Positions 3,914-36,800 are shown, numbered from the stretch's first letter. The stretch: 38,507 nucleotides of DNA from Acidimicrobiales bacterium (GCA_036270875.1 DATBBR010000142.1:1-38507), one strand, 5' to 3'. Notes: a model not told the origin generated them from the sequence alone. Made by a program: numbers and translations.

Positions 3914-4678
3914 TCAGCGACGGCGGATGGCGGGATGGGGCACGGGTACGGCCGGGTACGCCCTGCCATCGAGGTAGCGGTCGGCGAGGTAGCGGCTCAC
4001 CCGATCGTAGGTTGCCTGCCCCACCAGAGCGATGAGCTCGTCGCGCATCGTGCGGAACACCGGCTCGGCGCCGACGAAGGCGTCGGGGGCCTCGGTGCAC
4101 CACCAGTGGAACTCGGCCCCTCCGGCGCCCCAGTGCCGGCGTTCCCATTGACCGACGGTCGTGGTCACGTGCCCGTCGTCGCCGGCATCGTCCTCGCGGC
4201 GGAGCGGCAGCTGCCAGCACACGTTGGGCTTCAGCTCCATCGGCGGTTGGCGCCGCTCGACGGCAGCCAGGTGCAGCGCACAGCCGGCGCCCCCCGGGAA
4301 ACCCGGCCGGTTCAAGAAGACACAGGCCCCGTCGACGATCCTCGTCGCCAGGTCGCCCGACCGTGTGCGCTTGAGCGCACCCGTCCGCGCTCGATGAGCG
4401 AGCTGCCACTGGTCAGGCCCGAGCGTTGCCGCCGCGTCCTCCACACGGGCCGCGTCCTCCTCGTCGGTGAAGTGGGCGCCGTAGGAGCAGCACCCCTGGC
4501 CCAGCTCCGGAGCGGCCGCGGTCAGGACGCCCTGGCAGCCGCGACCGAAGATGCAGGTCCACGGGCTCAGCAGGAATGTGACGTCGAAGACCCACGTCCG
4601 TTCCTCGTCGGGGTCCTCGAAGCTCACCCACTCGTGAACCCCATCCGGCTGCTTGCCGTTGCGTCTCGATCGGGACAT
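3914..4678 (-). CDS. Cys-rich putative metal/Fe-S binding protein (YkgJ/DUF3109-like)
   Basis: 254 residues with a spaced Cys array: C42 and C48 (TCIFGRGC), CC63-64 (GCCSYGAHF), C119 (CVFLNR), C133 (GCALHLAA), C154 (KPNVCWQLPL) and C194 (WWC). The order, with CxFL, GCxLH and the final CWQLPL, resembles the zinc/iron-chelating YkgJ/DUF3109 proteins; the resemblance is from memory. No membrane segment. ATG at 4678 is preferred over an in-frame GTG at 4687 because TACCGT sits 7 nt before the ATG, fitting a leaderless transcript. The gene follows the radical SAM gene on the same strand with a 61-bp gap, so it could be read through from that operon or transcribed alone. Role unknown; a redox or metal-handling partner is possible. 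Confidence 0.82.
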   Translation of the reverse strand: MSRSRRNGKQPDGVHEWVSFEDPDEERTWVFDVTFLLSPWTCIFGRGCQGVLTAAAPELGQGCCSYGAHFTDEEDAARVEDAAATLGPDQWQLAHRARTGALKRTRSGDLATRIVDGACVFLNRPGFPGGAGCALHLAAVERRQPPMELKPNVCWQLPLRREDDAGDDGHVTTTVGQWERRHWGAGGAEFHWWCTEAPDAFVGAEPVFRTMRDELIALVGQATYDRVSRYLADRYLDGRAYPAVPVPHPAIRRR

Positions 4679-4685
4679 CACGGCC

Positions 4686-4691
4686 ACGGTA
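4686..4691 (-). promoter_or_regulatory. Leaderless-type -10 box for the Cys-rich gene
   Basis: TACCGT on the minus strand with 7 nt to the ATG at 4678. It suggests the Cys-rich gene has its own start of transcription in addition to any read-through from the radical SAM gene. Confidence 0.42.
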
Positions 4692-4739: not shown

Positions 4740-6176
4740 TCAGTCGGACAGCCGGCCGAGCGAGCCGAACTGACCGGCGGTCGGCTCCGCGCAGCAGAAC
4801 CACGGCTCGGTCAGGCGAGGTCGATGCGATCCCGATCGAGCGCCGACGAGAGCCGCCGCGTCATCGGCGCAGCCCGCGCCCTCGTCGTGGCGTCCGCCGT
4901 TCATCGCCTCGCTGATGGCCTGCCGGATTCGCACGTAGCTGGTCCCCACGGCCTCGTCCTCGGCGGCGGCCCGCTCGGCGATCGAGGCCAGGTCGGCTTG
5001 AAGGGCGTCCACCCGAGCATCGGGTGAGCGCCACGTGTAGCTGAGGAGATCGGGGTCGTAGGGGCCGAGCGGCTCTTGGACGTCGTCGAGGATCAAGGAG
5101 CCTCGGGGTACGAGCAGCCTGATGCTGTACTGGACCGCGTCGACGTTGGGGACCAGGTCGTTGCGGGCGACAAAGTCCACGATGTCCGCGATGTCATGCA
5201 TCGACGTCCAGGGCGTGAAGGGCAGCCACGATGGACGGATCTCGATCCCGTGGGCGCGCAGGATCTCGACCGCCTCGGCGGCCTGGGCGGCCGTGTGCCC
5301 CTTGTCCAGGCGGGCGAGGATCTCGTCGTTCACGGATTCGAACGCCGACACGACGAACAGGCACCCGGCGGACGCCATCTCGTCCCAGATCCCGCGGAGG
5401 GCGAGGATGTGCTCGACCTTGGTCGTGCAGTCGAAGGTGAGCTGCGGGAAGCGCTCGTGCATGGCGCGCACCACCCTGAGCGAGTGGTGCGGGCCGTTGA
5501 GGAAGTCGGGGTCGCCGAAGGTGATGTGCCGTGCGCCCATGCCCACCAGGTTGGCGACGTCGGCGACGACGACGTCCTCGCCCACGAGACGTGTGCGGCC
5601 GTCGTAGACGACCGGCACGGGGCAATGGCGACAACGGTGTGCGCAGCCGTGGCTGGCCTCGACATAGCCGACCGGGCGCTCCTCCCCGTCGACGGCCAGG
5701 CGCGCATAGCGATCGAGGGGCGGCAGCAGGTGACGGGCCGGCGTGGAGAACCTGCCCCTGCCCAGCTCGACGGTGACCGGGCTGGGGTCGGGGCGGCCCT
5801 CAGCCGCCAACTGGGCGACCCAGGCGAGGAGGGCAGGCTCGTACTCGCCGGCGATCGCCCGGTCTGCGAGGCCGGCGACGGCGGGGTCGGCCGCCATCGG
5901 TGCATACAGGCCGTAGAAGCACAGCGGCAGCTCCGGGCGGCGCTGCCGCACCGCGGCGGCGGCGGCCACCGCCAGCCGCATGGCGGTGTGCATGGGCACC
6001 GAGAAGGCCACCGCATCGGCCCAGTCCACCGCCTCGGGCGCCAGCTCGTCCCACTGCTGCACCGACAGGTCAAGACAGCGCGCCTCGTGGCCGGTGCGCG
6101 CCAGCGCTGCAGCGGGAGAAGCGACATGGAGGGGCTGATGGCCCAGCTCGTAGGTGGACACGAGCAGCACTCTCAC
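4740..6176 (-). CDS. B12-binding-domain radical SAM protein with CCAEP tail
   Basis: 478 residues. The N-terminal third (about 1-130) reads like a cobalamin-binding Rossmann domain (RVLLVSTYELGHQP, AVAFSVPMH, LCFYGLYAPM), although a canonical DxHxxG motif is not seen. The radical SAM core starts at residue 170 with CAHRCRHC (C178, C182, C185) for a [4Fe-4S] cluster, followed by ITFGDPDFLNGP and further barrel strands. After about residue 430 there is a tail ending in WFCCAEPTAGQF (C461-C462). From memory this matches the CUAEP/CCAEP-tail radical SAM (seleno)protein family; here both codons are TGC, so it is the Cys form. The GTG at 6176, 10 bp after the ATP-grasp stop, gives the natural MRVLLVSTYE start. 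Operon with the ATP-grasp gene. Substrate unknown. Confidence 0.9.
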   Translation of the reverse strand: MRVLLVSTYELGHQPLHVASPAAALARTGHEARCLDLSVQQWDELAPEAVDWADAVAFSVPMHTAMRLAVAAAAAVRQRRPELPLCFYGLYAPMAADPAVAGLADRAIAGEYEPALLAWVAQLAAEGRPDPSPVTVELGRGRFSTPARHLLPPLDRYARLAVDGEERPVGYVEASHGCAHRCRHCPVPVVYDGRTRLVGEDVVVADVANLVGMGARHITFGDPDFLNGPHHSLRVVRAMHERFPQLTFDCTTKVEHILALRGIWDEMASAGCLFVVSAFESVNDEILARLDKGHTAAQAAEAVEILRAHGIEIRPSWLPFTPWTSMHDIADIVDFVARNDLVPNVDAVQYSIRLLVPRGSLILDDVQEPLGPYDPDLLSYTWRSPDARVDALQADLASIAERAAAEDEAVGTSYVRIRQAISEAMNGGRHDEGAGCADDAAALVGARSGSHRPRLTEPWFCCAEPTAGQFGSLGRLSD

Positions 6177-6186
6177 TCCGGCCACG

Positions 6187-7425
6187 CTAACCGTCGCCCT
6201 GCTCGTCATCTACGACGCGCACGCCGAGGTGGGCGTGCGCCCGGCGAAGACTGGCCTCGACCTCCTCGGCGGTATCGCCCTTGGCGAACAGGAAGCCGAG
6301 GTAACGGTCTCCTTCGGGGAGCGGACGGACCGGCCGGCCCGGCGCGATAGAGATGTCCAGGCCCGTGATGCCCGGCACCCGGAGGGCCTCCTCCTGACCG
6401 GACACGCCCTCCAGGCGACCTCGGGCGGGGATCGGGAGCATCATCACCCCTGCCGCCCGCTGCTCGCGGGAGAGCCCGTCGAGGGGCATGCCCAGGGCGT
6501 GGGCCACGATGAGCCGCTCGAGACTGAGGCCGACCCCGAACGACAGCGAGCGGGAGCACAGACCGCCGATCGAGCGGGCCGCGACCTCGATCAGCCACGC
6601 GGTCCCGCCCTCGGTGCGCAGCTCGACGTGGACCGGCCCCTCGACCAGACCCATGGCAGCGCAGGCGGCGGCCGCCGTCCGCTCCACTGCGGCCACGGCT
6701 GACGGTGCCAGCCGGGACGGGGTGACGTAGATCGTCTCCTCGAAGTACGGCCCCTCGAGCGGATCCGGCTTGTCGAACACGGCCAGGGTCTCGAGCACAC
6801 CGCCTCGGAGCAGCCCCTCGACCGCCACCTCGGCGCCGGGAACAAAGGTCTCCACGAGGAGGCGACCACGGGGGTCCTCACCAGCATCGGCCGCGATGGC
6901 CCTGACCCGGTCGCCGGCGAGCTTGGCTCCCGGCGGGTCGTCCGCCCTGATGACGCCGCGGCTGGCCGACAGGGACGTGGGCTTGATCACGCACGGGAAT
7001 CCGACCGTTGCCGCCGCCGCGGCGACGTCCTCGTCCGGCCCGACGCTGGCGAACCGAGGCTGCACAACGCCGGCGGCGGCCAGGGTCTCCCGCATGGCCA
7101 GCTTGTCCCTCGTCGCCATCACCGCGTCGGGGGGGTTGTGGGGCAGGCCCAGGTCGCCGGCAGCCATGGCCGCGGCGAGGACCCCCTGGTCGTCGACGGC
7201 GACGATGCCATCGATCCGGCGCCGGCGGGAGAGGGCGACGATGGACGCCGCGGCCGCCTCCGGGCGCCGCAGGTCGATCTGGAGGAACGTGTCCTTCATG
7301 ATGTCGGCCAGCACCTGGCGGCGCTCCGAGGCCACGACCACCTCGGCGCCGACCTCGGCGGCGGCGGCGAGAAAGTCGCTGGCCCGGTAGGTGGCCGTGG
7401 GAAGGATCAGGAGAAGGCGAGCCAC
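6187..7425 (-). CDS. ATP-grasp domain ligase
   Basis: 412-residue ATP-grasp enzyme of the carboxylate-amine/thiol ligase type. N-terminal Rossmann-like pre-ATP-grasp domain (ARLLLILPTATYRASDFLAA), then a central domain with the adenine-site lysine strand GFPCVIKPTSLSASRGV, the LLVETFVPGAEVAVEG segment, and the metal site LIEVAARSIGG. It probably activates a carboxylate as acyl-phosphate and joins it to an amine; the substrate cannot be read from the sequence. GTG start at 7425. First gene of an operon with the CCAEP-tail radical SAM gene, and divergent from nfuA across only 56 bp. A -10-like CATGAT box on its strand lies 6 nt before the start and overlaps the nfuA box. Confidence 0.92.
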   Translation of the reverse strand: MARLLLILPTATYRASDFLAAAAEVGAEVVVASERRQVLADIMKDTFLQIDLRRPEAAAASIVALSRRRRIDGIVAVDDQGVLAAAMAAGDLGLPHNPPDAVMATRDKLAMRETLAAAGVVQPRFASVGPDEDVAAAAATVGFPCVIKPTSLSASRGVIRADDPPGAKLAGDRVRAIAADAGEDPRGRLLVETFVPGAEVAVEGLLRGGVLETLAVFDKPDPLEGPYFEETIYVTPSRLAPSAVAAVERTAAAACAAMGLVEGPVHVELRTEGGTAWLIEVAARSIGGLCSRSLSFGVGLSLERLIVAHALGMPLDGLSREQRAAGVMMLPIPARGRLEGVSGQEEALRVPGITGLDISIAPGRPVRPLPEGDRYLGFLFAKGDTAEEVEASLRRAHAHLGVRVVDDEQGDG

Positions 7426-7430
7426 GGATC

Positions 7431-7437
7431 TATCATG
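7431..7437. promoter_or_regulatory. Compact bidirectional promoter, ATP-grasp operon / nfuA
   Basis: TATCAT on the plus strand (7431-7436) and CATGAT on the minus strand (7432-7437) occupy almost the same bases. The first lies 7 nt before ATG 7444 and the second 6 nt before the ATP-grasp GTG at 7425. Both fit the leaderless spacing seen elsewhere here, so one AT-rich heptamer may start transcription in both directions. Confidence 0.45.
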
Positions 7438-7443
7438 TGGACG

Positions 7444-7485
7444 ATGACACCTCAGCCGAGGCTACCGTCAGGGGTGAAGACATGA
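7444..7485 (+). CDS. Possible leaderless 13-aa leader peptide before nfuA
   Basis: ATG is 7 nt after TATCAT, as in leaderless genes. The 13-codon frame (MTPQPRLPSGVKT) ends in a TGA that overlaps the nfuA ATG as ATGA, so nfuA could be translated by reinitiation as well as from its own GGGGTG site. No Cys codons or other obvious sensing motif; it contains three prolines. Real translation is not proven by the sequence. Confidence 0.38.
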   Translation: MTPQPRLPSGVKT

Positions 7486-8138
7486 GCTCGCAGCAGACAC
7501 CTGAGTTCCAGCCCGTGCTGAAGGTCAGCGACCAGGCTCGCGGCATGGTGCTCGACGTCCGGGGCCAGGAGACCGACGGTGATCGCCTGGCCCTCTGGCT
7601 GGAGGTCAGCGGCGTCGCCGGCTCCAACTACACCTATGACATGTACTTCCAGGCGGCGGTGGACGCTGGTCCCGACGACCTGGTGCAGCACGACGACGAG
7701 CTCACCATCGTGATCCCCGAGGCCAGCGTGGACAAGATCCGCGGCGCAACACTCGACGTGAGCGGCGCCGGCGATGACGCGGGGATGGTCATCATCAACC
7801 CCAACTCCCCGCCCCCCTCGGGCAGCCCGGCCATGGGTGACAGGCCACCGGCGGACCTGAGCGGCGACGTCGCCCAGCGAGTGGTCGCCGTCCTCGACCG
7901 CCAGATCAACCCGAGCATCGCCTCCCACGGAGGCCGGGCCGACCTGGTGGCCGTGGAGGACTCCACCGCCTATCTCCGCCTGAGCGGCGGCTGCCAGGGC
8001 TGCGGGCTGGCCAAGGTCACGCTGAGCCAAGGCATCGAGGTGGCGATCACCGACGCAATTCCGGAGGTGACGTCGGTGGTCGACGTCACCGATCATGCCA
8101 GCGGCGACAACCCCTACTTCGAGCCGGCCAAGAAGTAA
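7482..8138 (+). CDS. nfuA: Fe-S cluster carrier protein NfuA-like
   Basis: 218 residues with two domains. The N-terminal part (about 10-110) resembles an A-type/HesB scaffold that has lost its Cys ligands, as in E. coli NfuA. The C-terminal NifU-like domain (about 125-205) carries the cluster motif CQGC (C171, C174) in LRLSGGCQGCGLAKVTLSQG. It would receive and hand over [4Fe-4S] clusters to target enzymes. The ATG at 7482 has GGGGTG (7470-7475) upstream; an in-frame GTG at 7437 lies at the promoter box and is unlikely. It is divergent from, and shares a promoter region with, the ATP-grasp/radical SAM operon, whose radical SAM enzyme needs such a cluster; a functional link is inference. Confidence 0.93.
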   Translation: MSSQQTPEFQPVLKVSDQARGMVLDVRGQETDGDRLALWLEVSGVAGSNYTYDMYFQAAVDAGPDDLVQHDDELTIVIPEASVDKIRGATLDVSGAGDDAGMVIINPNSPPPSGSPAMGDRPPADLSGDVAQRVVAVLDRQINPSIASHGGRADLVAVEDSTAYLRLSGGCQGCGLAKVTLSQGIEVAITDAIPEVTSVVDVTDHASGDNPYFEPAKK

Positions 8139-10070: not shown

Positions 10071-10076
10071 TACATT
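10071..10076 (+). promoter_or_regulatory. Leaderless-type -10 box of the shikimate operon
   Basis: TACATT, 7 nt before the aroC GTG at 10084, with no purine-rich ribosome-binding site between. Probable start of the aroC-aroK-aroB-aroQ transcript. Confidence 0.52.
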
Positions 10077-10083
10077 GGGCTCT

Positions 10084-11271
10084 GTGCTGCGCTTCCTCAC
10101 CGCCGGGGAGTCCCATGGACAGGCGCTGGTCGTCGTCGTCGAGGGGCTTCCTGCCGGCCTGCCCATCACGGTGGAGGAGGTGCAGGGTGAGCTGGCCCGG
10201 CGGCGGCTCGGGTATGGCCGGGGCCCTCGGATGCGGTTCGAGGCGGACGAGGTGACCCTGCTCGGAGGCATCCGCCACGGCCGGACGCTGGGCTCCCCGG
10301 TGGCCATCGTGATCGCCAACACCGAGTGGCCGAAGTGGTCGGAGGAGATGTCGCCGGGACCGGGCGCGCCCTCCAGGGTGCTGACCCAGCCGCGGCCCGG
10401 TCATGCCGACCTGGCGGGCATGCAGAAGTACGGCTTCGACGACGCCCGTGACGTCCTCGAGCGGGCATCGGCGCGCGAGACGGCCGCTCGTGTCGCCGCC
10501 GGCACCTGCGCCAAGGCCCTGTTGGCCCGACTCGGGATCGAGGTGCTCAGCCACGTGGTGGCCGTGGGGTCGGTCGAGGCTCGAGCCGGCGCCCGGCCCG
10601 AGCCCGGTGACCTGCCTCGCATCGACGCCTCACCGCTCCGGTGCTTCGATCCCGAGGTGGAGCAGGCCATGGTGGCCGAGGTCAAGGCGGCGGCCAAGGT
10701 CGGCGACTCACTGGGCGGCGAGGCCGAGATCCTGGCCTACGGCGTCCCGGTCGGGCTCGGGAGCCACGTCCACTGGGACCGCAAGCTCGACGGACTTCTG
10801 GCGCAGGCCCTGATGAGCATCCAGGCGGTGAAGTCCGTGGGCCTCGGGGACGGCGCCGACCTGGCCGCCAAGCGGGGCTCGGAGGCGCATGACGCCATCG
10901 CGTGGGACGCCGATTCCGGTGCCTACTGGCGCGAGACAACCCGGGCCGGTGGAGTGGAAGGCGGCATGTCCACCGGGGGCCTCCTGGTGGCCAGGGTGGC
11001 CATGAAGCCGTTGGCCACGCTCAACCGGCCCGTGCTCAAGACCGTCGATGTCGTCTCGAAGGAAGAGACGCTCTCGTTCAAGGAGCGCACGGACGTCACC
11101 GCCGTGCCCGCCATGGGCGTGGTGGCCGAGACCATGGTGGCGCTCACCCTGGCCGGGGAGGCGCTGCGGAAGTTCGGGGGCGACTCGCTGGACGAGGTGC
11201 GGCGCAATCGCGACGCCTACCTGGCCAGCCTGGGCGAGTCGGTGTCGCCGGTCGGTGCCGGGGATGGCTGA
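10084..11271 (+). CDS. aroC: Chorismate synthase
   Basis: Last step of the shikimate pathway: converts 5-enolpyruvylshikimate-3-phosphate to chorismate with reduced FMN as cofactor. 395 residues, normal length. Starts [12 protein letters not shown], with the conserved GESHG region, [12 protein letters not shown], the [11 protein letters not shown] region, and the GGMSTG segment near residue 295-300. GTG at 10084 is chosen over TTG at 10075 because family members begin directly with [11 protein letters not shown] and a TACATT box sits 7 nt upstream. First gene of the aro operon; its last 8 bases overlap aroK. Confidence 0.97.
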
Positions 11272-11785
11272 GCACATCTTCATCGTGGGGATGATGGGAT
11301 CCGGGAAGACGACGATCGGTCGGCTCCTCGCCAAGCGGCTCGGGTGGCGTCATCTCGACAGCGACGAGCAGGTGGGGCGGGACACCGGGCAGACGGTTCC
11401 GGAGATCTTCGCCCAGCGGGGCGAGCCGGCCTTTCGCGCTGCCGAGGCGCGCGCCCTCGCCGCCGCTGCCGTCGCTGACACGCCAACGGTGGTCTCGGTG
11501 GCCGGCGGCGCCGTGCTCGATCCAGACAATCGTCACGTGCTGCGGCGCGGTGGTGTGGTGGTCTGGCTGTGGGCCCCGGTGGAGACGCTGGCCCAGCGCG
11601 TCGGCGATGGTGCCGGGCGGCCGCTGCTCGGCGACGACCCTGCCGCCGCCCTCCGCCACCTGTACGCCGAGCGGCGCCCCGTCTACCAGGACCTGGCCCA
11701 GGCCGTCGTGGACGTCGACGGCGTCGACGTCCGTACTGTGGTTGATCGGGTGCTCGCCGCCCTGCCATTGGACACGCGTCGATGA
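11264..11785 (+). CDS. aroK: Shikimate kinase
   Basis: Phosphorylates shikimate at O3 using ATP. 173 residues, typical. Walker [10 protein letters not shown] (residues 9-17), the [11 protein letters not shown] substrate segment (DxD type), FRAAEARAL with the shikimate-binding Arg, the VAGGAV loop, and the RPLL lid region. The ATG lies 8 nt inside the end of aroC and the stop overlaps aroB as ATGA, so the three genes are translationally coupled. Confidence 0.96.
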
Positions 11786-12813
11786 TCCGGGTCCCGGTCT
11801 CGCTCGGGGACCGGTCCTACGAGGTGCTGGTCGGTCCGGGCGCTCGTCATCGTCTGCTCGAGGTACTCCCCGCCGGCGTTGACCGCGCTGCGGTGGTCAC
11901 CCAGGCCGCGGTCGACGTGGCCGTCGATCCCGGTGTGGAGTGGAGTCCGTTCCTGATCGGCGAGGGGGAGGGGGCCAAGAGCCTCGCCAGCGTCGAGGAG
12001 CTGTGCCGGGGATTCGCCCGCTGGGGCCTCACTCGCGCCGATGTCGTCGTTGCCGTCGGCGGCGGGGTGGTCACCGACGTGGCCGGCTTCGCCGCGGCCA
12101 CGTACCACCGCGGCGTCCCCGTGGTGCATGTGGCCACCACCCTGCTGGCCCAGGTGGACGCCGCCATCGGCGGCAAGACCGGCGTCAACATCCCCGAGGG
12201 CAAGAACCTGGTTGGCGCCTTCTGGCAGCCCGCCGCAGTCCTGTGCGACACCGAGGTGCTCGAGTCCCTGCCCCCGCGGGAATACCAGAGCGGGCTCGGT
12301 GAGCTGGCCAAGTACGCATTCCTTGGTGCCGAAGGGCTCGCCGACCTGCCCCTCGCCGAACGAGTGGCGCGCTGCGTGGAGATCAAGGCCGAGGTCGTCG
12401 CAGCCGACGAGAAGGAGGCAGGCCGGCGAGCCGTGCTCAACTACGGCCACACGTTGGCCCACGCCCTCGAGACGCTCGCCCCCGACATCGGCGCGGATCT
12501 CCGCCACGGCGAGGCCGTCGGCATCGGGCTCGTGTTCGCCGCCCTGCTGGCCCGACGGCTGGGGAGGATCGACAGCGAGCGGGTGAGGGACCATCGGCGG
12601 GTGGTGGAGGGGTACGGCCTTCCCGTCGAGCTCCCGGCCGAAGCCGACGCGGGCCGGCTGATCGACCTCATGGCGAGGGACAAGAAGGCGACCACCGGCC
12701 TCACCTTCGTGCTCGACAGCTCCCGGGGTGTCGAGCTCGTTCGGGGTGTCGATCGCTCCGACGTTCGAGCGGCCCTGGCGGACATGGACAAGGTCGGCGG
12801 CGAGGCCCGATGA
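11782..12813 (+). CDS. aroB: 3-dehydroquinate synthase
   Basis: NAD- and metal-dependent cyclisation of DAHP to 3-dehydroquinate, second step of the pathway. 343 residues. Visible are VAVGGGVVTDVAGFAAATYHRG (NAD-binding and core), TLLAQVDAAIGGKTGVN, the zinc-site segment NYGHTLAHALE and RHGEAVGIG. Coupled to aroK (ATGA) and to aroQ (ATGA). DAHP synthase, shikimate dehydrogenase and EPSP synthase are not in this window. Confidence 0.97.
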   Translation: MIRVPVSLGDRSYEVLVGPGARHRLLEVLPAGVDRAAVVTQAAVDVAVDPGVEWSPFLIGEGEGAKSLASVEELCRGFARWGLTRADVVVAVGGGVVTDVAGFAAATYHRGVPVVHVATTLLAQVDAAIGGKTGVNIPEGKNLVGAFWQPAAVLCDTEVLESLPPREYQSGLGELAKYAFLGAEGLADLPLAERVARCVEIKAEVVAADEKEAGRRAVLNYGHTLAHALETLAPDIGADLRHGEAVGIGLVFAALLARRLGRIDSERVRDHRRVVEGYGLPVELPAEADAGRLIDLMARDKKATTGLTFVLDSSRGVELVRGVDRSDVRAALADMDKVGGEAR

Positions 12814-13274
12814 CATCACCGCTCCTGCTCCTGCTCTCGGGCCCCAACCTCGACCTGCTGGGCGAACGCCAACCCGAGCTCTACGGGCGGGCCACGCTGG
12901 CGGAGCACGTCGACACTGCCGAGACCGCAGCCCGTCGCCACGGGCTGGCCCTGGAGCACACCCAGTCCAACCACGAGGGCGTGCTCGTCGACGCCATCCA
13001 CGAGGCGCGCCACCGGGCCGCCGCCATCATCATCAACGCCGGTGCCCTGACCCACTACGCCTGGTCGCTGCACGACGCCCTGGCCAGCTTCGACGGGGTG
13101 GTCATCGAGGTGCACCTGTCGCATCCCAACGCCCGAGAGCCCTGGCGGCACGTCTCGGTCGTGGCGCCGGTCGCCGACGGCTCCATCGCCGGCTTCGGCG
13201 GCCTCGGCTACGAGCTCGCCGTCGACGCCGTGGCCCGGATCCTCGCCGCCCGTTCGGATGCGGGCCGGGTATGA
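12810..13274 (+). CDS. aroQ: 3-dehydroquinate dehydratase, type II
   Basis: Dehydrates 3-dehydroquinate to 3-dehydroshikimate; type II enzymes are dodecamers that work through a Tyr/Arg pair. 154 residues. Motifs are LSGPNLDLLGERQPELYG with the catalytic Tyr, the QSNHEGVLVDAIHEA segment, INAGALTHYAWSLHDAL, VEVHLSHPNAREPWR (here IEVHLSHPNARE) and the C-terminal GFGGLGYELA. ATG overlaps the aroB stop. End of the aro operon; a new promoter appears 37 bp downstream. Confidence 0.97.
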   Translation: MTSPLLLLLSGPNLDLLGERQPELYGRATLAEHVDTAETAARRHGLALEHTQSNHEGVLVDAIHEARHRAAAIIINAGALTHYAWSLHDALASFDGVVIEVHLSHPNAREPWRHVSVVAPVADGSIAGFGGLGYELAVDAVARILAARSDAGRV

Positions 13275-18506: not shown

Positions 18507-19576
18507 GCGACGCCCTCCTCGTGCTCGCCGACGGCGCCGTGTTCGAGGGCGAGACGGTCGGCGCCGCTGGGCGCGGAGGGGTCGCCACGGGCGAGGTGGT
18601 GTTCAACACGGTGATGAGCGGCTACCAGGAGGTCGTCACCGACCCGTCGTACGCAGGTCAGGTGATCGCCTTCACCTATCCCCACATCGGCAACTACGGC
18701 GTGGCTCCCGAGGATGACGAGAGCCGCCGGCCGTGGTGCCGGGGTGTCGTGGTGCGCGACCTGGCGACCCGGCCCAGCAGCTGGCGCTCCGTCGAGAGCT
18801 TGGGCGGCTTCCTGGAGCGGCACGGCGTCCCCGGCATCGCCGGCATCGACACCCGGCGTCTCACCCGCCACATCCGAGAGGCGGGCGCGCTGCCGTGCGC
18901 CTTCGGTCCCGCCGACGAACAGACGCTGCTGGCGGCGGCCCAGGCCGAACCCGGCACCGAAGGCGTCGACCTGGCGACCGCGGTCACCACCCCGGAGCCC
19001 TACGAGGTCGGTGACGGGCCCCTCCGCGTGGTGGCCTACGACTTCGGCATCAAGCGGGCGATGCTGCGCCGGCTCGGGGCCATGGCCCGCGTGCAGGTGG
19101 TCCCGGCCACGACGCCGGCCGAGGAGGTGCTGGCCGACCGGCCCGACGGCGTCCTGCTCTCGAACGGGCCGGGCGACCCGTCAGCGCTTGGTTACGCGGT
19201 GGACACCATCACTTCCATGCTCGGAGAGGTGCCGGTGTTCGGGATCTGCCTCGGTCACCAGCTCCTGGCCACCGCGCTGGGCGGGCGCACCTACAAGCTG
19301 ACGTTCGGGCACCACGGAGGCAACCACCCCGTGCGCCGGCTCACCTCGGACAGTGTCGAGATCACCAGCCAGAACCACAACTACGCGGTCGCCGAGGGCT
19401 CCGTGCCCGGCGCCGATGTCACCCACGTCAATCTCAACGACGGGGTCGTCGAGGGATTGCGCAGCCGCGAGCTGGCCGCATTCGGGGTGCAGTACCACCC
19501 CGAGGCCGGTCCGGGACCACACGACGCGGAGTACCTGTTCGAGGAGTTTCGTCTCCTCATGGAGGCGGGCCGCTGA
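18503..19576 (+). CDS. carA: Carbamoyl-phosphate synthase small (glutaminase) subunit
   Basis: Releases ammonia from glutamine and channels it to CarB. 357 residues: the N-terminal CPSase domain ([38 protein letters not shown]) and a class I glutamine amidotransferase domain with the nucleophile in [11 protein letters not shown] and the catalytic His/Glu in [16 protein letters not shown] start within the pyrC stop; TGATG overlap with carB. Confidence 0.97.
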
Positions 19577-22500
19577 TGCCCCGCCGCGACGACCTGTCGT
19601 CCATCCTCGTCATCGGGTCGGGTCCCATCGTGATCGGCCAGGCGTGCGAGTTCGACTACTCCGGCACCCAGGCGTGTCGCGTCCTCGTCGAAGAGGGCTA
19701 CCGGGTCGTGCTGGCCAACTCGAACCCGGCCACGATCATGACCGATCCGGAGTTCGCCCATCGCACCTATGTGGAGCCGCTGGACGTCGACGTGCTGGCC
19801 GCCATCATCGAGCGCGAGCGCCCTGACGCCGTCCTCGGGACCCTGGGAGGCCAGACAGCCCTCAACCTGGCCGTGGGCCTCGTCGAGCGGGGGGTGCTCG
19901 AGCGCTTCGGTGTCGAGCTGATCGGCGCCAGCGCCGAGGCCATCCACACCGCCGAGGACCGCGAGCGCTTCAAGGCGGCGATGACAGAGATCGGCCTCTC
20001 CGTCCCTCCGTCGGGTTTCGCCTACAACCTCGAAGACGCGCTCGGTGTCGCCCGGGAGATCGGCTTCCCGCTCATCGTGCGCCCGTCGTTCATCCTCGGT
20101 GGCGCGGGCACGGGCATCGCCCACGACCTCGACAGCTTCCGCGCCTTGGCCCGGACCGCCCTCGCCACCAGCCCCATCTCGGAGATCCTCATCGAGCGAT
20201 CCATCGCCGGTTGGAAGGAGTATGAGCTCGAGGTCATGCGCGACAGGGTGGACAACTGTGTCGTCGTGTGCTCGATCGAGAACCTCGATCCAATGGGTGT
20301 CCACACGGGCGACTCGATCACGGTTGCTCCGATCCAGACGCTCGCCGACGTCGAGTACCAGAGGATGCGCGACGCCGCGTTTGCCTGCATCCGTCGCATC
20401 GGGGTGGAGACCGGAGGCTCCAACATCCAGTTCGCCGTCGATCCGGAGCGCGGCGACATGGCCGTGATCGAGATGAACCCGCGCGTGTCGCGCTCGAGCG
20501 CGTTGGCCTCCAAGGCGACGGGGTTCCCCATCGCCAAGATCGCCGCCCGGTTGGCTGTCGGCTACACGCTGGACGAGATTGCCAACGACATCACGCGCGA
20601 GACACCCGCCAGCTTCGAGCCCACCATCGACTACGTCGTGACCAAGGTCCCGCGCTGGGCGTTCGAGAAGTTCCCCGGGATCCCCGATGCCCTGGGGACC
20701 AGCATGCAGTCGGTGGGCGAGGCCATGGCGATCGGCCGCACCTTCCCCGAGTCGCTGCAAAAGGCGCTCCGTTCTCTCGAGCACGGCCGCTGGGGCCTGA
20801 ACTGCGACCCAGGCGAGACGATGCTCGACTCGCTCTCCGACGACGAGCTCGTCCGGCGGGCGTCGGTGGCGACACCGGATCGGCCCTTCCAGCTGGAAGC
20901 GGCGTTGCGCCGCGGCATCGGAGCCGAACGCCTGGCCTCGGCCACCGGTGTCGACGAATGGTTCCTCGGCCAGATCGGGCGCATCGTGGCGGAGCGCCAG
21001 CGCCTGGCCGGCCGCCGTGTCGGGGACATGGCCCGTAGCGACTGGCGGCGGGCGAAGAGGCTGGGATTCGGCGACGCGCAGCTGGCGCGGCTGCTCGGCT
21101 CGACCGATGATGCCGTTCGCGGCGCCCGCCTGGCTGCCGGCGTACGACCGACGTTCAAGACCGTCGACACGTGTGGCGCCGAGTTCGAAGCGGCGACGCC
21201 GTACCACTACTCGACCTACGAGGACGAGGACGAGGTCCGGCCCAGCCGCCGGCCGACAGTGATCGTGCTCGGCTCGGGGCCCAACCGCATCGGCCAGGGG
21301 ATCGAGTTCGACTACTGCTGCGTGCAGGCGAGCTTCGCCCTGCGCCAGGCCGGCTACGAGACCGTCATGGTCAACTCCAACCCGGAGACCGTCTCGACGG
21401 ACTACGACACCAGCGACCGCTTGTACTTCGAGCCCGTGGGAGAGGAGGAGGTTCGCAACGTCATCGAGGCGGAGCAGGCAGCCGCCCAGGCGGGCGGAGA
21501 CGTCGTGGGGGTTGTCGTGAGCCTCGGCGGCCAGACGCCGCTCAAGCTGGCGGGACGGCTACCCCGTGAGCTGGTGCTGGGCACGAGCCCGGACGCCATC
21601 GACCTGGCCGAGGACCGCGAGCGCTGGAGCGCGTTGTGCGCCCGGCTCGAGATTCCCCAGCCCGCGGGGGCCACGGCGACGTCGGTCGACGAGGCCCTGG
21701 CCGTGCTCGACCGGATCGGCTACCCGGCCCTGCTGCGTCCCAGCTATGTGCTCGGGGGCCGGGCTATGGAAATCGTCTACGACGAGCCCGGCCTGCGCCA
21801 CGCCATGGCTGCTCTGGCACCGTTCGGGGGAACGGGCGCGGCAGGCTCCCTCGGGCGCGAGGGTGGGCTGTCGGCGGAGCGGCCAGTGCTGGTGGACCGG
21901 TTCCTCGAGGACGCCGTCGAGGTGGACGTGGACGCCGTGCGCGACCGCACCGGCGAGATCGTGATCGGTGCCGTGATGGAGCACGTCGAGGAGGCCGGGG
22001 TGCACTCGGGCGACTCGGCGTGCGTGATCCCACCGCCCACGCTGCCCACGTCGACGGTGGAGGTCATCGAGAGCTACACCCGGGCCATCGCCGACGCCCT
22101 CGACGTCCGGGGGCCGGTCAATGTCCAGTACGCGGTCAAGCAGGGGCAGGTGTTCGTGATCGAGGCCAACCCGCGGGCCAGCCGCACGGTGCCGTTCGTG
22201 GCCAAGGCCACCGGCGTGGCCCTCGCCAAGGTGGCGGCGCGGGTCATCGTGGGGGCCACGCTCGCCGAGCTGCGAGCCGAGGGGCTGCTGGCGTCGCCGG
22301 GTGGCGGCGATCGCGTGAGCGTGAAGGAGGCGGTACTGCCCTTCGAGCGGTTCCCGGACGTCGACACGCTGCTGGGACCGGAGATGCGCTCGACCGGAGA
22401 GGTGATGGGCGTCGACCGGACCTTCGGCCTCGCCTTCGCCAAGAGCCAGATGGCGGCCGGGGCCCGCCTTCCGGACGCGGGCGCCGTGTTCCTGTCGCTG

Positions 22501-22920
22501 GCCGATCGGGACAAGGCGGCTGGCCTGGGCGCCGCCGTTCGCTTCGTCGAGCTCGGCTTCTCGCTCGCCGCCACGGCCGGAACGGCCGCGTTCCTCGAGG
22601 AGCACGGCGTGCCCGTCGAGACGATCGTCGCCAAGGTGGGGGATGTCAGGAGCGGAGGCCACAGCGAGGGCGTCGACGCCGTCGAGCTCATCGCCAGCGG
22701 CAAGGTCAAGCTCGTCGTGAACACCCCACGGGGCCGGGGGCCGCGCGCCGACGGCGCCTACATCCGCACCACGGCCAGCGTGCACGGCGTGCCCTGTCTG
22801 ACCACGGTGGCGGCGGCGCGCGCCGCGGCCGCCGGGATCGCCGACTGGGCGGGCACCCCGTTGACGGTGCGTTCGCTGCAGGAGCTGCACCAAGGCGACC
22901 AGCTGCGGCTGCCGTTGTGA
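19576..22920 (+). CDS. carB: Carbamoyl-phosphate synthase large subunit
   Basis: 1114 residues, full length. Two homologous ATP-grasp halves, each beginning with the VLGSGPxxIGQG/A-type loop ([21 protein letters not shown] near residue 10; [19 protein letters not shown] near 565), then a C-terminal MGS-like allosteric domain (about 970-1110; [35 protein letters not shown]). It makes carbamoyl phosphate from bicarbonate, ammonia and two ATP for both pyrimidine and arginine synthesis. A modest insertion around residues 740-765 (Gly/Ala-rich, [13 protein letters not shown]) interrupts the second half just before its conserved [13 protein letters not shown]. Its TGA overlaps pyrD as GTGA. Confidence 0.98.
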
Positions 22921-23849
22921 GACGGTCCCGCCCGCCGGTCGATCTCGCCACGATGGTCGGCTCGCTGGCGCTTCCCAACCCGATCATGACGGCCTCGGGG
23001 ACCTCCGGCCACGGAGCGGAGCTGGCTCCGTATGTGGAGCTCGGGTCGCTCGGGGCCGTGGTCGTCAAGTCGCTGTCGGCCGAGCCCTACCCCGGCAACC
23101 CGGCCCCCCGGGTGCACGGCACGACCACCGGGATGCTGAACAGCGTCGGCCTCCAGGGCCCGGGCGTGGAGTCGTGGCTGGAGCGCGAGCTGCCGCCGCT
23201 GCTCGCGACAGGCGCCAGAGTTGTCGCCAGCATCTGGGGACAACGGGTCGAGGACTTCGCCAAGGCGGCGACCATGTTGGCCGAGGCTCCACCCCAGGTG
23301 GTTGCGATCGAGGTGAACGTGAGCTGTCCCAACCTCGAGGACCGCAGCCGGATGTTCGCCCATTCGCCGACGGCCACCGCCGAGGCGGTGTCGGCCAGCG
23401 CTGCTGGCGACCGGCCCCGCTGGGTGAAGCTGAGCCCCAACGTCACCGACGTGCGCGAGATCGCCGGTGCCGCACTGGCCGCCGGAGCCGAGTCGCTCAC
23501 CTTGGTCAACACCGTGCTGGGTCTGGCCATCGATCCCGAGACCCGCGCCCCGCGCTTGGGCGCGGGTGGTGGTGGGCTCTCCGGGCCGGCCATCCACCCG
23601 ATCGCCGTGCGCGCCGTGCACGACTGTCGCGCCGCATTTCCCGCAGCGTCCATCGTCGGTGTCGGCGGGGTGACGCGGGGGACCGACGCCATCGAGCTGC
23701 TGCTCGCTGGAGCCGCCGCCGTCCAGGTCGGCACGGCCACCTTCGCCAACCCCCGGGCTCCGGCGCGCGTGCTCGCCGAGGTGGCCCGGTGGTGCCAGGA
23801 GCACCGGGTCCCCCGTGTCACCGAGCTGATCGGAGCGGCCCATGGCTGA
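22917..23849 (+). CDS. pyrD: Dihydroorotate dehydrogenase, class 1B-like catalytic subunit
   Basis: FMN enzyme that oxidises dihydroorotate to orotate. 310 residues. The base is Cys137 in IEVNVSCPN, which marks class 1, unlike the Ser-dependent membrane class 2 enzyme of mycobacteria. [41 protein letters not shown] and [28 protein letters not shown] are typical of 1B proteins. The 1B enzyme normally works with PyrK, an FAD/[2Fe-2S] subunit that passes electrons to NAD; no pyrK is in this operon. The GTG at 22917 overlaps the carB stop; the 3' end overlaps pyrF by 8 nt. Confidence 0.94.
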
Positions 23850-25754: not shown

Positions 25755-26990
25755 ATGACGACGGGGGACGCGGGCGGGACCTCACCCGCGCTGTCGGGCC
25801 GGCGTGTCGTCCTCGGTGTCACCGGCGGCATCGCCGCCTACAAGGCGGTGGAGCTGTGCCGGCGCCTCGTGGACGCCGGGTGCCACGTCGTGCCCGTGCT
25901 GTCCGAGGACGCCACCCGCTTCGTGGGCGAGGTGACGTTCTCCGCCCTGGCGTCGGAGCGGGTGCGCTCCTCGCTGTGGGAGGACGCGGACCCGATTCCC
26001 CACACCCGACTGGGGCAGACGGCCGATCTGATCGTGGTAGCCCCGGCGACGGCCAGGCTGATCGGTCGCTATGCCCACGGGCTGTCCGACGACCTGCTGA
26101 GCGCCACGCTCCTGGCCACCCGGGCCGAGGTGGTGCTGGCGCCGGCCATGCACACCGAGATGTGGGAGCACCCGGCCGTGCAGGAGAACCTGGCGATCCT
26201 CCGCCGGCGGGGCGTGCGGGTGGTCGAGCCTGACGTCGGTCGCCTGGCCGGCGGCGACGTCGGTGCCGGTCGCCTGGCCGAGCCCGGGACGGTGCTGGCC
26301 GCCATCGCCGAGGCGCTGACGGGGGTAGCAGGCGACATGCTGGGGCTGCGCGTGTTGGTGAGCGCCGGAGGCACGCGGGAGCCCATCGACCCGGTCCGTT
26401 TCATCGGGAACCGCTCGTCGGGCAAGCAGGGTCACGCCCTGGCCGACGAGGCGGCGCGCCGCGGGGCGTCGGTCACGTTGGTGACGACGACCGGACGGCC
26501 TGTGGCGCGAGGTATCGACGTCGTGCCCGTCGAGACGGCGATGGAGATGGAGACGGCGGTGCTGGAGCGCAGCGACGACGCCGAGATCCTCGTGATGGCC
26601 GCGGCGGTGGCGGACTTCCGGCCCAAGTCGGTCGCCGACAACAAGCTCAGCAAGGCTGACGGGGTGCCCGAGATCGTGCTCGAGCCGACTCCTGACATCC
26701 TGGCCACACTCGGCCGCCGGAGGCGGCCCGGTCAGACCCTCGTCGGCTTCGCGGCCGAGACGCGCGACGCCGTCGCCCGGGCCGCGGCGAAGCTGGCGGA
26801 CAAGGGCATCGACCTCATAGTGGCGAACGATGTCTCCGCTCCAGGCGTCGGGTTCGAGCACGACACCAATGCAGTCGTCATCATCGCCGACGACGGGAGC
26901 GAGCACGAGGTCCGCTTGACAGACAAACAGACGGTGGCCCGCGCCGTGCTCGATGCCGTGGTCGCCCGCCGGGCAAGGAGATCGAAATGA
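25755..26990 (+). CDS. coaBC: Bifunctional phosphopantothenoylcysteine decarboxylase / synthase
   Basis: Two steps of coenzyme A synthesis: CoaB joins 4'-phosphopantothenate and cysteine with CTP, CoaC decarboxylates the product with FMN. 411 residues. CoaC domain about 20-190 ([34 protein letters not shown]); CoaB domain about 200-400 ([41 protein letters not shown]). At the position of the E. coli CoaC active-site Cys (ACGDxGxGR) this protein reads AGGDVGAGR; mycobacterial CoaBC, as I recall it, also lacks the Cys there. ATG 25755 has GGAGGGG 8 nt upstream. Stop overlaps metK as ATGA. Confidence 0.95.
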
Positions 26991-28183
26991 GCAGCCGCTA
27001 CACCTTCACCTCGGAGTCGGTGACCGAGGGTCACCCGGACAAGATGGCGGACCAGGTCTCCGACGCCGTCCTCGATGCGATCCTGACCGACGACCCCAAC
27101 GGCCGGGTTGCCTGCGAGACGCTCCTCACCACCGGGCTGGTGGTGGTAGCCGGCGAGATCACGACCATGGGGTACGTCGACATCGCCCGACTGGTGCGGG
27201 ACACGGTGTGCAGCGTGGGCTACGACCGCGAGTCCTACGGCTTTGACGGTCACACCTGCGGGGTCGTCGTGTCCATCGACGAGCAGTCCACCGACATCGG
27301 CCAGGGCGTGACCTCGGCGTGGGAGCTGCGCTCCGGCAAGGGGGGCGAGGACCAGCTCAACGCCCAGGGCGCGGGGGACCAGGGCATGGTCTTCGGCTAC
27401 GCCGCGGACGAGACACCCGACCTCATGCCCCTGCCCATCTGGTTGGCGCACCGGTTGGCCCACCGTCTGTCGGAGATCCGCCGGGCCGGCGTGCTGCCGT
27501 ACCTGCGCCCCGACGGCAAGACCCAGGTGACCGTCGAGTACGAGAACGACCGCCCCATCCGGCTCGACACCGTCCTCATCTCCACCCAGCACCAGCCGGG
27601 GATCGATCTGGACACCCTGCTCCTGCCCGACCTGCGGGAGCACGTGATCCACCCGTTGCTTCCGACCGATCTCGACGTCGACACGATGAACGTGCTCGCC
27701 AACCCGACGGGCCTGTTCGAGCTCGGGGGCCCCCACGCCGACACGGGCCTCACGGGCCGCAAGATCATCGTGGACACCTACGGTGGCGCGGCTCGCCACG
27801 GCGGCGGCGCCTTCTCGGGCAAGGACCCGAGCAAGGTCGACCGGTCGGCTGCCTACGCCGCCCGGTGGGTGGCCAAGCACATCGTGGCCGCGGGTGCCGC
27901 CCGCCGGTGCGAGATCCAGGTGGCCTACGCCATCGGGGTGGCGCGGCCCGTGTCGGTCATGGTCGAGACCTTCGGTACCGAGACCGTGGACCCGGCGGCC
28001 ATCGTGCGCACGGTCAGGGAGGTGTTCGACCTCCGGCCGGCGGCCATCATCCGCGACCTCGACCTCTTGCGACCCATCTATCGGCGCACCGCCGCCTATG
28101 GCCACTTCGGCCGCCCGGACAAGGAGTTCACCTGGGAGGCCACCCCGCGCCTCGAGGACGTGAAGCTGTCGTTGGGCCTGTAG
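26987..28183 (+). CDS. metK: S-adenosylmethionine synthetase
   Basis: Makes SAM from methionine and ATP. 398 residues. [25 protein letters not shown] at the N-terminus, [12 protein letters not shown], and [23 protein letters not shown] (phosphate-binding loop) are diagnostic. ATG overlaps the coaBC stop. No SAM riboswitch-like leader is seen, which agrees with its position inside an operon. SAM made here is used by RsmB downstream and by the radical SAM enzyme at 4740-6176. Confidence 0.98.
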
Positions 28184-33906: not shown

Positions 33907-34950
33907 ATGCGAGACGAAGCAGCCATGCGGCGGGCGGTCGAGCTGGCGGCTTCCGTCCGCACCCAGACCTCGCCCAACCCCTGGGTGGGGTGCGTGATCG
34001 TGTCCGGTGCCTCGAGCTTCGAGGGCGCCCACCAGGGCCCGGGCCAGGCCCACGCCGAGGCCGCAGCCCTGGCCGCGGCGGGGGAGGCGGCGCGGGGAGC
34101 GACCCTGTACTGCACCCTGGAGCCGTGCTCACACGTCGGTCGGACCGGGCCGTGCGCCGATGCCATCGTCGCTGCCGGAGTCTCCAGGGTGGTCGTGGGT
34201 GTCCTCGACCCTGATCCCCACGTCTCCGGCCAGGGGCTGGCCCGCCTGCGCCAGGCCGGGATCGACGTCGCGGTGGGGGTCGGGGCCGTCGCCGTCGAGG
34301 AACAGCTCGCCCCCTACCTCAGTCACCGCCGGACCGGCCGGCCCTGGGTGGTGCTGAAGCTGGCGGCGACCCTCGACGGGCGGGTGGCTGCGCCCGACGG
34401 CAGCAGCCGGTGGATCACCGGTCCCGAGGCCCGCGCCGACGCCCATCGACTCAGGTCAGAGAGCGACGCCGTCCTCGTGGGTGCCGGGACGGTGCGGGCC
34501 GACGACCCCGAGCTCACGGTGCGCCTGGAGACGGGCCCCCAGCCCGAGCGACAGCCGCTGCGCGTGGTGCTGGGGCGGGCGCCGGCGGACGCGAAGGTCC
34601 GTCCGGCGCTGGAGCTGACCGGCGACCTCGGCCAGGTGCTCGAGGATCTCGGTCGTCGGCAGATCCTCCAGGTTCTCGTCGAGGGAGGGCCGACGGTGGC
34701 CCACGACTTCCACGCCTCGGGGCTGGTCGACCGCTACGTCGTGTACGTGGCGCCCGCGCTCCTCGGCGGCTCGGACGGGCGCCCGGTGTTCGACGGTCCC
34801 GGTGCTCCCACGATCGGCGGGCTGTGGCGCGGGCGCCTGCGGTCGGTCGAGCGGCTCGGCGAGGACCTCCGCATCGAGCTCGCACCCCCCGGCAACCCGC
34901 CCGGCGCTCCCGCCGAGGCGGCCCTGGCCGGGGTCGAGGCGGGGGGGTAG
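33907..34950 (+). CDS. ribD: Riboflavin biosynthesis deaminase/reductase RibD
   Basis: Bifunctional enzyme for the second and third steps from GTP. 347 residues. The N-terminal cytidine-deaminase-like domain has zinc ligands in HAEAAAL and EPCSHVGRTGPCADAI; the C-terminal reductase domain (about 145-330) contains VLKLAATLDGRVAAPDGSSRWITG and VEGGPTVAHDFHASGLVDRY. ATG 33907 gives MRDEAAMRRAVELA. A TAGACT box (33881-33886) on the preceding stop codon could be a promoter with a short leader. No FMN riboswitch is present in the 23-bp gap. Confidence 0.95.
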   Translation: MRDEAAMRRAVELAASVRTQTSPNPWVGCVIVSGASSFEGAHQGPGQAHAEAAALAAAGEAARGATLYCTLEPCSHVGRTGPCADAIVAAGVSRVVVGVLDPDPHVSGQGLARLRQAGIDVAVGVGAVAVEEQLAPYLSHRRTGRPWVVLKLAATLDGRVAAPDGSSRWITGPEARADAHRLRSESDAVLVGAGTVRADDPELTVRLETGPQPERQPLRVVLGRAPADAKVRPALELTGDLGQVLEDLGRRQILQVLVEGGPTVAHDFHASGLVDRYVVYVAPALLGGSDGRPVFDGPGAPTIGGLWRGRLRSVERLGEDLRIELAPPGNPPGAPAEAALAGVEAGG

Positions 34951-34957
34951 GCGCGAC

Positions 34958-35578
34958 GTGTTCACCGGCATCGTGGAGGAGCTCGGGCGGGTGCGGGAGC
35001 GAGATGGCGGGCGTCTGGTGTTCGAGGGCCCGCTCGTGTCCGAGGACGCCCGGGTGGGCGACTCGATCGCCGTCAACGGCTGCTGCCTCACCGTGACGGC
35101 GACGGGCGAGGGCTGGTGGACCGCAGACGCCGTCGAGGAGACGTTGTCCCGGACCAACCTCGATCGCCTCGCTCCCGGTGATCCGGTGAACCTCGAACGG
35201 CCGGTGCGGCTGTCGGACCGCCTGGGCGGCCACCTCGTCCAGGGACACGTGGACGCCGTCGGGACGATCCTGGAACCGGCCCCGGCGCTGCGCGTGAGCG
35301 CTCCTGCGGCCGTGCTCCGCTACGTGGTCGAGAAAGGATCGATCACCGTGGATGGGGTCAGCCTCACCGTGGTGGAGGTGACGGCGGACGGCTTCAGCGC
35401 CGCCATCGTGCCCCATACGGTTCGTGCCACGACGCTCGGGCACAGGAGGCCCGGTGAGCCCGTGAACCTCGAGATCGACGTGATCGCCAAGTACACCGAG
35501 CGCCTGCTGGCGGGCGGCGCGACCACGGCCGGCCCGGGAGGGCGGCCCTATTGTCCAGCCGAGCGGGGAGGTCCCTGA
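34958..35578 (+). CDS. ribE: Riboflavin synthase alpha subunit
   Basis: Dismutates two 6,7-dimethyl-8-ribityllumazine molecules to riboflavin (also called ribC in some genomes). 206 residues made of two similar barrels, with the paired motifs starting FTGIVEELG and HLVQGHVDAVG, the NGCCLTV loop and the matching DGVSLTV loop in the second half. The GTG at 34958 gives MFTGIVEELG, exactly the family start; a G-rich run upstream can serve as ribosome-binding site. 7 bp after ribD, 1 bp before ribBA. Confidence 0.96.
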   Translation: MFTGIVEELGRVRERDGGRLVFEGPLVSEDARVGDSIAVNGCCLTVTATGEGWWTADAVEETLSRTNLDRLAPGDPVNLERPVRLSDRLGGHLVQGHVDAVGTILEPAPALRVSAPAAVLRYVVEKGSITVDGVSLTVVEVTADGFSAAIVPHTVRATTLGHRRPGEPVNLEIDVIAKYTERLLAGGATTAGPGGRPYCPAERGGP

Positions 35579-35579
35579 C

Positions 35580-36800
35580 ATGCCCATGGCCCGGATCGAC
35601 GACGCCATCGCCGCGATCGGTCGCGGCGACATGGTCGTCGCGGTCGACGACGAAGATCGGGAGAACGAGGGCGACCTCATCATGGCGGCCGAGGCGGTCA
35701 CGCCCGAGAAGATCGCCTTCTTCCTGGCCCACACGTCGGGCCTCATCTGCGTCCCCATGACCGGTGATCGTCTCGATCAGCTCGACCTGCCGCTGATGGT
35801 GACCTCCAACACCGAGTCGCAGCGAACCGCCTTCACCGTCACCGTCGACTACCGCCACGGCACCACCACGGGCATCTCGGCAGCCGACCGGGCGGCCACC
35901 ATCAAGGCGCTGATCGACCCCGGCACCCGGCCTGGCGACATGGCCCGTCCGGGCCACATCCTGCCCCTGCGCTACCGACCGGGAGGCGTGCTCAAGCGCG
36001 CCGGTCACACCGAGGCGGCCGTCGACCTGGCGCGCGCCGCCCACCTGTACCCGGCGGCGGTGCTCTGCGAGGTCGTCAACGCCGACAAGACCGGCATGGC
36101 CCGGCTGCCGGAGCTCGAGCGCTTCGCCAGGGAGCACGACCTGCTCGTGATCTCGATCGCCGACCTCATCCATTACCGCCGGCAGAAGGACAAGCTGGTT
36201 CGGCGGGTCAGCGAGGCACGGATCCCGACCAGCCACGGCGACTTCACCTGCTTCGCCTACGAGTCGGTGCTCGACGAGGAGCAGCACCTGGCCCTGGTGC
36301 GGGGCGCGGTCCAGGGCGAGGACAACGTGCTCGTGCGCGTGCACAGCGAGTGCCTCACCGGCGACGTGTTCGGTTCGTTTCGCTGCGACTGCGGCACACA
36401 GCTCGAGGCCGCGCTGCGCCTCATCGCCCAGGAGGACCTCGGCGTGGTGGTCTACCTGCGGGGACACGAAGGCCGGGGCATCGGGCTCAAGCACAAGCTG
36501 CGGGCCTACACGCTCCAGGAGCAGGGCCGGGACACCGTCGACGCCAACGTGGAGCTGGGGCTGCCGGTGGACAGCCGCGAGTACGGTATCGGAGCCCAGA
36601 TCCTCGTCGACCTGGGTATCACGACCATGCGCCTGATGACCAACAACCCAGCCAAGTACGGCGGCCTGGAGGGGTTCGGCCTCGACATCGTCGAGCGGGT
36701 CCCCCTCGAGTCGTCACCCAACCCGGAGAACATCAAGTACCTCCGGGCCAAGCGGGAGCGCATGGGCCATCTGATCGAGGGGCTCGATGACGTCCTTTGA
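35580..36800 (+). CDS. ribBA: 3,4-dihydroxy-2-butanone-4-phosphate synthase / GTP cyclohydrolase II
   Basis: Supplies both precursors of riboflavin. 406 residues. RibB domain 1-200 with [20 protein letters not shown] and the [11 protein letters not shown] signature; RibA domain 205-400 with the zinc site [15 protein letters not shown] and [18 protein letters not shown]. Both halves look active. ATG has GGGAGG 8 nt upstream (35566-35571). The 3' end overlaps ribH by 14 nt. Confidence 0.97.

Follow-up and report, generated by a model that had tools for sequence, protein, structure and literature searches.

A radical S-adenosylmethionine protein with a CCAEP tail, related to ArsL, and its linkage to an ATP-grasp ligase and an Nfu-type protein

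Introduction

ArsL reportedly forms a carbon-arsenic bond by placing the 3-amino-3-carboxypropyl (ACP) group of S-adenosylmethionine (SAM) onto As(III) (PMC8552651; PMC12159101). Here we describe a related protein: a radical SAM protein of the CUAEP/CCAEP-tail family (NCBIfam model NF040546), encoded in a stretch of 38,507 nucleotides from an Acidimicrobiales bacterium (GCA_036270875.1, DATBBR010000142.1:1-38507; "the window" below means this whole stretch). Beside its gene lie two others, for an ATP-grasp ligase resembling the L-amino acid ligases (LALs) and for an Nfu-type iron-sulfur (Fe-S) carrier. Comparison of homologous loci establishes two points at the level of sequence: the three genes belong to one conserved module whose members co-occur, and ArsL, the nearest characterized relative of the radical SAM protein, is its sister. 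The product of the three-gene unit is probably a small peptide-like metabolite.

The two families differ most visibly at their C-terminal tails: FKRCCLKC in ArsL, TEPWFC[C/U]AEP in CUAEP proteins (U, selenocysteine or Sec). The RCCLKC tail of ArsL is said, in work by Yao et al. from 2024, to take part in arsenite binding. NF040546 is known by name only: literature searches under CUAEP, CCAEP (in this sense) and RCCLKC found no mention, the selenoprotein-neighborhood work of Haft and colleagues lying outside their coverage, and a 2026 review of prokaryotic selenoproteins had no entry for the family under the terms searched. A module with Nfu and an LAL was likewise not found described in the literature searched, so the three-gene pathway and its link to ArsL appear to be undescribed.

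Linkage and co-occurrence of the three genes

Linkage was followed in 101 distinct CUAEP loci: 24 came from 396 searched genomes of the phylum, 80 from a named genome collection and one from Thermomicrobium roseum, less 4 duplicates. The 80 are the top matches out of more than 500, which biases them to close relatives; because some loci are near-identical, locus counts are not independent.

In the window the radical SAM gene lies downstream of the ligase gene, with 10 bp between the ligase stop (6187) and the radical SAM start codon (GTG, 6176); both open reading frames (ORFs) and the gap agree with an earlier note made from this sequence alone. Among the 92 loci whose flank could be used, 59 have the ligase gene directly upstream of the radical SAM gene and 10 others have it within 10 kb, and the homologues without a conserved ATP-grasp neighbor that the earlier note had raised as the contrary outcome did not materialize. 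Loci with no flanking ligase were considered as counterevidence and dismissed, as the ligase is encoded elsewhere in 23 of 25 such genomes. Across the 396 genomes, 23 have both genes, 1 the radical SAM gene only, 10 the ligase gene only and 362 neither gene (Fisher p 2e-28, without correction for phylogeny; partial contig-end matches and a divergent copy in genome G080 are counted as radical SAM genes).

The linkage of these two genes thus held up, and the tightly linked third one, Nfu, was absent from the note. It lies within 700 bp of the ligase gene in 87 of 98 ATP-grasp loci (77 divergent, 7 tandem, 3 convergent); orientation varies, so the linkage withstands rearrangement. Nfu is found in 52 of the 53 loci that have the ligase and more than 3 kb of upstream sequence, and in two loci (L069 and L083) it adjoins the radical SAM gene while the ligase gene is elsewhere. 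One genome (G032) carries two copies of each of the three genes. The divergent module of G080 (locus L034, 7314-9843) has all three in the window's order, with the tail SEAWFCCAAPPR; its radical SAM protein scores 306 bits, below the NF040546 cut-off, its ligase is about 34% identical, and it forms a long branch in the radical SAM and ligase trees alike.

The window's Nfu protein (ORF open from GTG at 7437) matches PF01106 (NifU) and shares its A-type-like N domain, NifU domain and CxxC with NfuA. It differs from NfuA in falling below the cut-off of the equivalog model TIGR03341 (87.5 bits; cut-off 269 bits) and in the linkage of its gene to those of the ligase and the radical SAM protein.

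The radical SAM protein and the ligase

The radical SAM protein has the tail and the CxxxCxxC motif of the NF040546 family and matches the model over its full length, above the curated cut-off of 500 bits, so that the family the earlier note had named proved correct. Chance is ruled out for this assignment by the profile score and by conservation across about 100 loci. Judged from aligned N-termini, GTG at 6176 is the best reading of the start, because most homologues begin MRVLL...; residue numbers given in the note (C178/C182/C185 and C461-C462) fit this start. The longer reading, from ATG at 6209 (4740-6209, minus strand, 489 aa), numbers the same residues 189/193/196 and 472/473. An AF2 model (pLDDT 94) has as its top fold match (Z 26) the diol dehydratase AprD4, itself a radical SAM enzyme, followed by the cobalamin enzymes MgmA, OxsB and TsrM (Z 23-24).

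The ligase matches ATP-grasp_4 (95 bits), ATPgrasp_N (52) and LAL_C2 (62), all above the Pfam cut-offs. Its best solved relatives by profile are BL00235 (3vot, E 1e-62) and then BacD, and its AF2 model (pLDDT 91) returns 3vot as best fold match (TM about 0.80), the same family. BL00235, BacD and RizA are the nearest solved structures by profile and fold alike; the ligase is about 25% identical to them and has a conserved motif of its own, FDKPDPLxGPYFEETIYVTPS. The resemblance to dipeptide-forming LALs argues for a small peptide-like metabolite as product. Of the product classes entertained earlier, a small natural product thereby gains support, while modification of a peptide or protein is argued against; with an LAL-type ligase, a precursor peptide is also less to be expected. 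Taken as a whole, the earlier note was right in what it observed and partly right in its interpretation, having missed Nfu and implied a cobalamin role that is unsupported (see below).

Table 1. Features of the module and its downstream neighbor, in window coordinates.
Feature	Position	Strand	Remarks
Cys-rich DUF3109-like protein	3914..4687	(-)	PF11307 E 6e-4, below cut-off; directly downstream of radical SAM gene
CUAEP/CCAEP-tail radical SAM protein	4740..6176	(-)	478 aa from GTG; NF040546 559.4 bits
Tail TEPWFCCAEP with C461-C462	4782..4811	(-)	columns E, W, C, [C/U], E, P invariant in 95 loci
Codon of C462, Sec (UGA) position in homologues	4791-4793	(-)	tail alignment
CxxxCxxC [4Fe-4S]/SAM motif (C178, C182, C185)	5622..5645	(-)	invariant in 51 aligned homologues
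ATP-grasp ligase, LAL type	6187..7425	(-)	412 aa; ATP-grasp_4, ATPgrasp_N, LAL_C2
Nfu-type Fe-S carrier	7485..8138	(+)	divergent; A-type-like N domain and NifU domain with CxxC

The C-terminal tail

The window's tail codons (TTC TGC TGC GCG GAG CCG, residues 460-465, FCCAEP) give Cys-Cys, with no Sec in this copy. In homologues the C-[U/C]-A-E-P tail is invariant except for A/S, so the variable tail that the earlier note had named as a possible finding did not occur, and Sec, which it had proposed to look for at 461 or 462, is seen at 462: the second Cys position is Sec (in-frame TGA) in 40 of 96 tailed loci and otherwise Cys. Several observations bear on the reading of this codon. The 46 bases from the UGA form hairpins like those of a selenocysteine insertion sequence and fold better than shuffled sequences in Sec members but not in Cys members (mean z -1.34 vs -0.11, p 3e-7). 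Of 14 Sec-type genomes examined, 13 have SelB or tRNA-Sec, one of them only as a partial SelB match and a borderline tRNA-Sec; the sole genome with neither is 78% complete. The window's own genome encodes SelB, tRNA-Sec and SelD, despite its Cys-Cys copy. On the radical SAM tree Sec and Cys have been swapped 14 times (at least 5 swaps are forced by supported branches), and therefore the second Cys of the tail is a functional position where Cys can replace Sec. The tail thus offers a natural comparison of Sec and Cys at one presumably catalytic position.

In the AF2 model, pLDDT is about 60 along a linker (residues 431-450) and then about 90 for residues 451-470. A confident tail after a low-confidence linker suggests that the tail docks on the radical SAM core. 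The earlier note took the vicinal Cys/Sec pair for a redox or metal site; the conservation is confirmed, and because the CC tail of the nearest relative, ArsL, reportedly binds the metalloid substrate, substrate binding is at least as likely here as a redox role.

Relation to ArsL

ArsL (NF040542) is the second-best NCBIfam model for the radical SAM protein, at 281 bits (E 2e-83); the third reaches 50 bits. In the tree a single clade (support 100) unites CUAEP with ArsL proteins and excludes the phylum's other B12-type radical SAM proteins; the ArsL proteins are themselves a single clade. The two are about 33% identical and align over the core, and both have a conserved C-terminal CC tail, C461-C462 being among the 29 positions that they have in common and the outgroup does not. 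The CUAEP protein is about 50 residues longer at the C-terminal end. Unlike ArsL, CUAEP loci are linked to Nfu and have no arsenic gene context.

Four ArsL/RCCLKC plasmid clusters also contain an LAL-type ATP-grasp gene (L137:2442-3674, L138:2483-3706, L139:7715-8779, L140:7461-8777; hosts Alicyclobacillus, Priestia, Klebsiella and Pantoea), often beside genes for a major facilitator superfamily (MFS) transporter, ArsM, a GTP-binding protein and an aquaporin. These clusters hint at arsinothricin-containing peptides. A sister relationship between their ligases and that of the CUAEP module was considered and rejected, as the two form separate clades (100/100) with 22-29% identity. The CUAEP and ArsL families were therefore paired independently with ligases of the superfamily, as would be expected if both make an amino acid.

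On genomic grounds, selenium was rejected as the element in the product. SelD had no match in the Cys-type genomes G016 (one contig), G220, G347, G172 and G080, and so the module occurs without selenophosphate synthesis. Gene context argues against selenium as an obligatory constituent and, equally, against a dedicated arsenic pathway.

A possible pathway and its alternatives

We tentatively favor, with slightly more doubt than confidence, a pathway in which SAM is cleaved at the C-gamma-S bond as in ArsL, on another substrate, and dipeptide ligation by the ATP-grasp enzyme follows. Nfu would load or reload the [4Fe-4S] cluster of the radical SAM enzyme, which would cleave SAM to give an ACP radical. 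This radical would be added to a soft atom held by C461 and C462 (or Sec), yielding a non-protein amino acid that the ligase could join to a second amino acid to form a dipeptide-like metabolite. A broader claim, possible and on balance doubtful, is that the pathway is chromosomal and widespread, with an ArsL-like enzyme (in many cases a selenoprotein) bonding ACP to an element other than arsenic and a dedicated ligase making the dipeptide. If true, ACP-radical chemistry would be far more widespread, and on a new substrate: the CUAEP family occurs in Actinomycetota, Chloroflexota, Gemmatimonadota, Rokubacteria, Nitrospirota and Acidobacteriota. Since the ligase and Nfu are concrete partners, the product could be sought by reconstituting the three proteins.

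Several points weigh against the ArsL-like pathway. The mode of SAM cleavage cannot be read from sequence. The protein is below the ArsL cut-off of 450 bits, the third Cys of RCCLKC is absent and the arsenic context is missing, and for these reasons ArsL membership is not claimed. When about 100 CUAEP flanks were searched by tblastn, the 25 queries being proteins of T. roseum and of five ArsL/RCCLKC loci (ArsM, ArsR, ArsB, permease, ArsC, ArsH, ArsN1, ArsQ and MFS), essentially no matches were found, weak ArsR hits in one locus (L098) being the only exception. Ten genomes, including the single-contig G331, have the ligase gene, nearly always adjacent to Nfu, and no CUAEP match; the dependence between radical SAM protein and ligase is therefore one-sided, and either the ligase can function in the absence of this radical SAM protein or these genomes have lost its gene. 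Lastly, Nfu may be the cell's general Fe-S carrier, because many genomes of the same order have Nfu without the other two genes.

The tail could play a different part. As a redox pair or hydrogen-atom donor, Cys-Cys/Sec could serve an enzyme that uses a 5'-deoxyadenosyl radical on an organic substrate, the ligase coupling the product. The repeated swapping of Sec and Cys at a single position, as is typical of redox-active or nucleophilic sites, speaks for this, as does AprD4 as best fold match; yet the CC tail of ArsL is placed equivalently, reportedly for arsenite binding, and Sec is equally plausible as a soft ligand. We regard this reading, with the tail quenching or reducing the product radical like the dithiols of ribonucleotide reductase and thioredoxin reductase, as unlikely. 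A class B cobalamin-dependent radical SAM methyltransferase, with a ligase that takes the methylated product, would account for the N-terminal B12-binding match, which is marginal (31.9 bits; Pfam cut-off 32.1), and for the place of MgmA, OxsB and TsrM close behind AprD4. This is very unlikely: no DxHxxG motif was found in the window's protein (the motif is also missing from some cobalamin radical SAM enzymes), the top fold match is AprD4, whose B12 fold is vestigial, and the clade is shared with ArsL, whose reported reaction is not known to need cobalamin. The cobalamin role that the earlier note implied from the B12-like N-terminus is left unsupported by the marginal match and the lack of the motif.

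Two further alternatives concern gene context. The true unit could be the Nfu/ATP-grasp pair, acting in Fe-S supply or in thiol chemistry, with the radical SAM protein merely a client. The ten ligase-only genomes would fit, and so would two other observations: most genomes with a relocated radical SAM gene still have the ligase gene next to Nfu, and further Fe-S clients (lipoyl synthase, MoaA, aconitase, a CDGSH protein) are present near some loci. We nevertheless find it distinctly unlikely, given that of the 24 genomes with the radical SAM gene 23 have the ligase, vs 10 of the 372 without, that Nfu keeps with the radical SAM gene apart from the ligase in L069 and L083, and that L034 is long-branched in both trees, as if radical SAM protein and ligase had changed together. 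The least probable alternative, and a most unlikely one, is a dedicated arsenic pathway in which hydroxyarsinothricin or a close relative is ligated to a dipeptide and the uptake and export genes lie elsewhere in the genome. ArsL is the closest characterized relative, and the four ArsL plasmid clusters have ATP-grasp genes; against this, all five RCCLKC loci examined are surrounded by arsenic-related genes, whereas the CUAEP flanks are essentially free of ars homologues, and a dedicated arsenic cluster was rejected on that ground.

Neighboring genes

The DUF3109-like protein encoded directly downstream of the radical SAM gene has several invariant cysteines and is an accessory to the module, homologues being similarly placed in only about 8 loci (L062, L085, L090, L091, L095, L109 and L129). 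In 16-23 loci (L092:6235-7227 and relatives) a DUF169 protein is encoded about 3 kb upstream of the radical SAM gene. A MoaA gene lies near Nfu/ATP-grasp in about 7 loci (for example L148:6437-7489, L036:7920-8936 and L065:2705-3859), and an ATP-binding cassette (ABC) ATPase, a member of a large generic family, recurs near modules. In Chloroflexota (L072-L080, L065/L067), the module's radical SAM gene is followed by a second, lipoyl-synthase-like one and by pyruvate dehydrogenase E1; the latter is also near several Acidimicrobiia loci. Genes for homocysteine S-methyltransferase or cobalamin-independent methionine synthase adjoin the ATP-grasp/Nfu pair in single loci (L153:9810-10766; L166:906-3227).

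Two loci titled as a Bifidobacterium breve metagenome-assembled genome (L093 and L112) group with Acidimicrobiia in the trees, and these titles are probably wrong. The rest of the window holds core metabolism (26987-28183, 10075-13274, 19576-23849 and 34189-36800): SAM synthetase, chorismate and dehydroquinate synthases, carbamoyl-phosphate synthase, dihydroorotate dehydrogenase and riboflavin genes.
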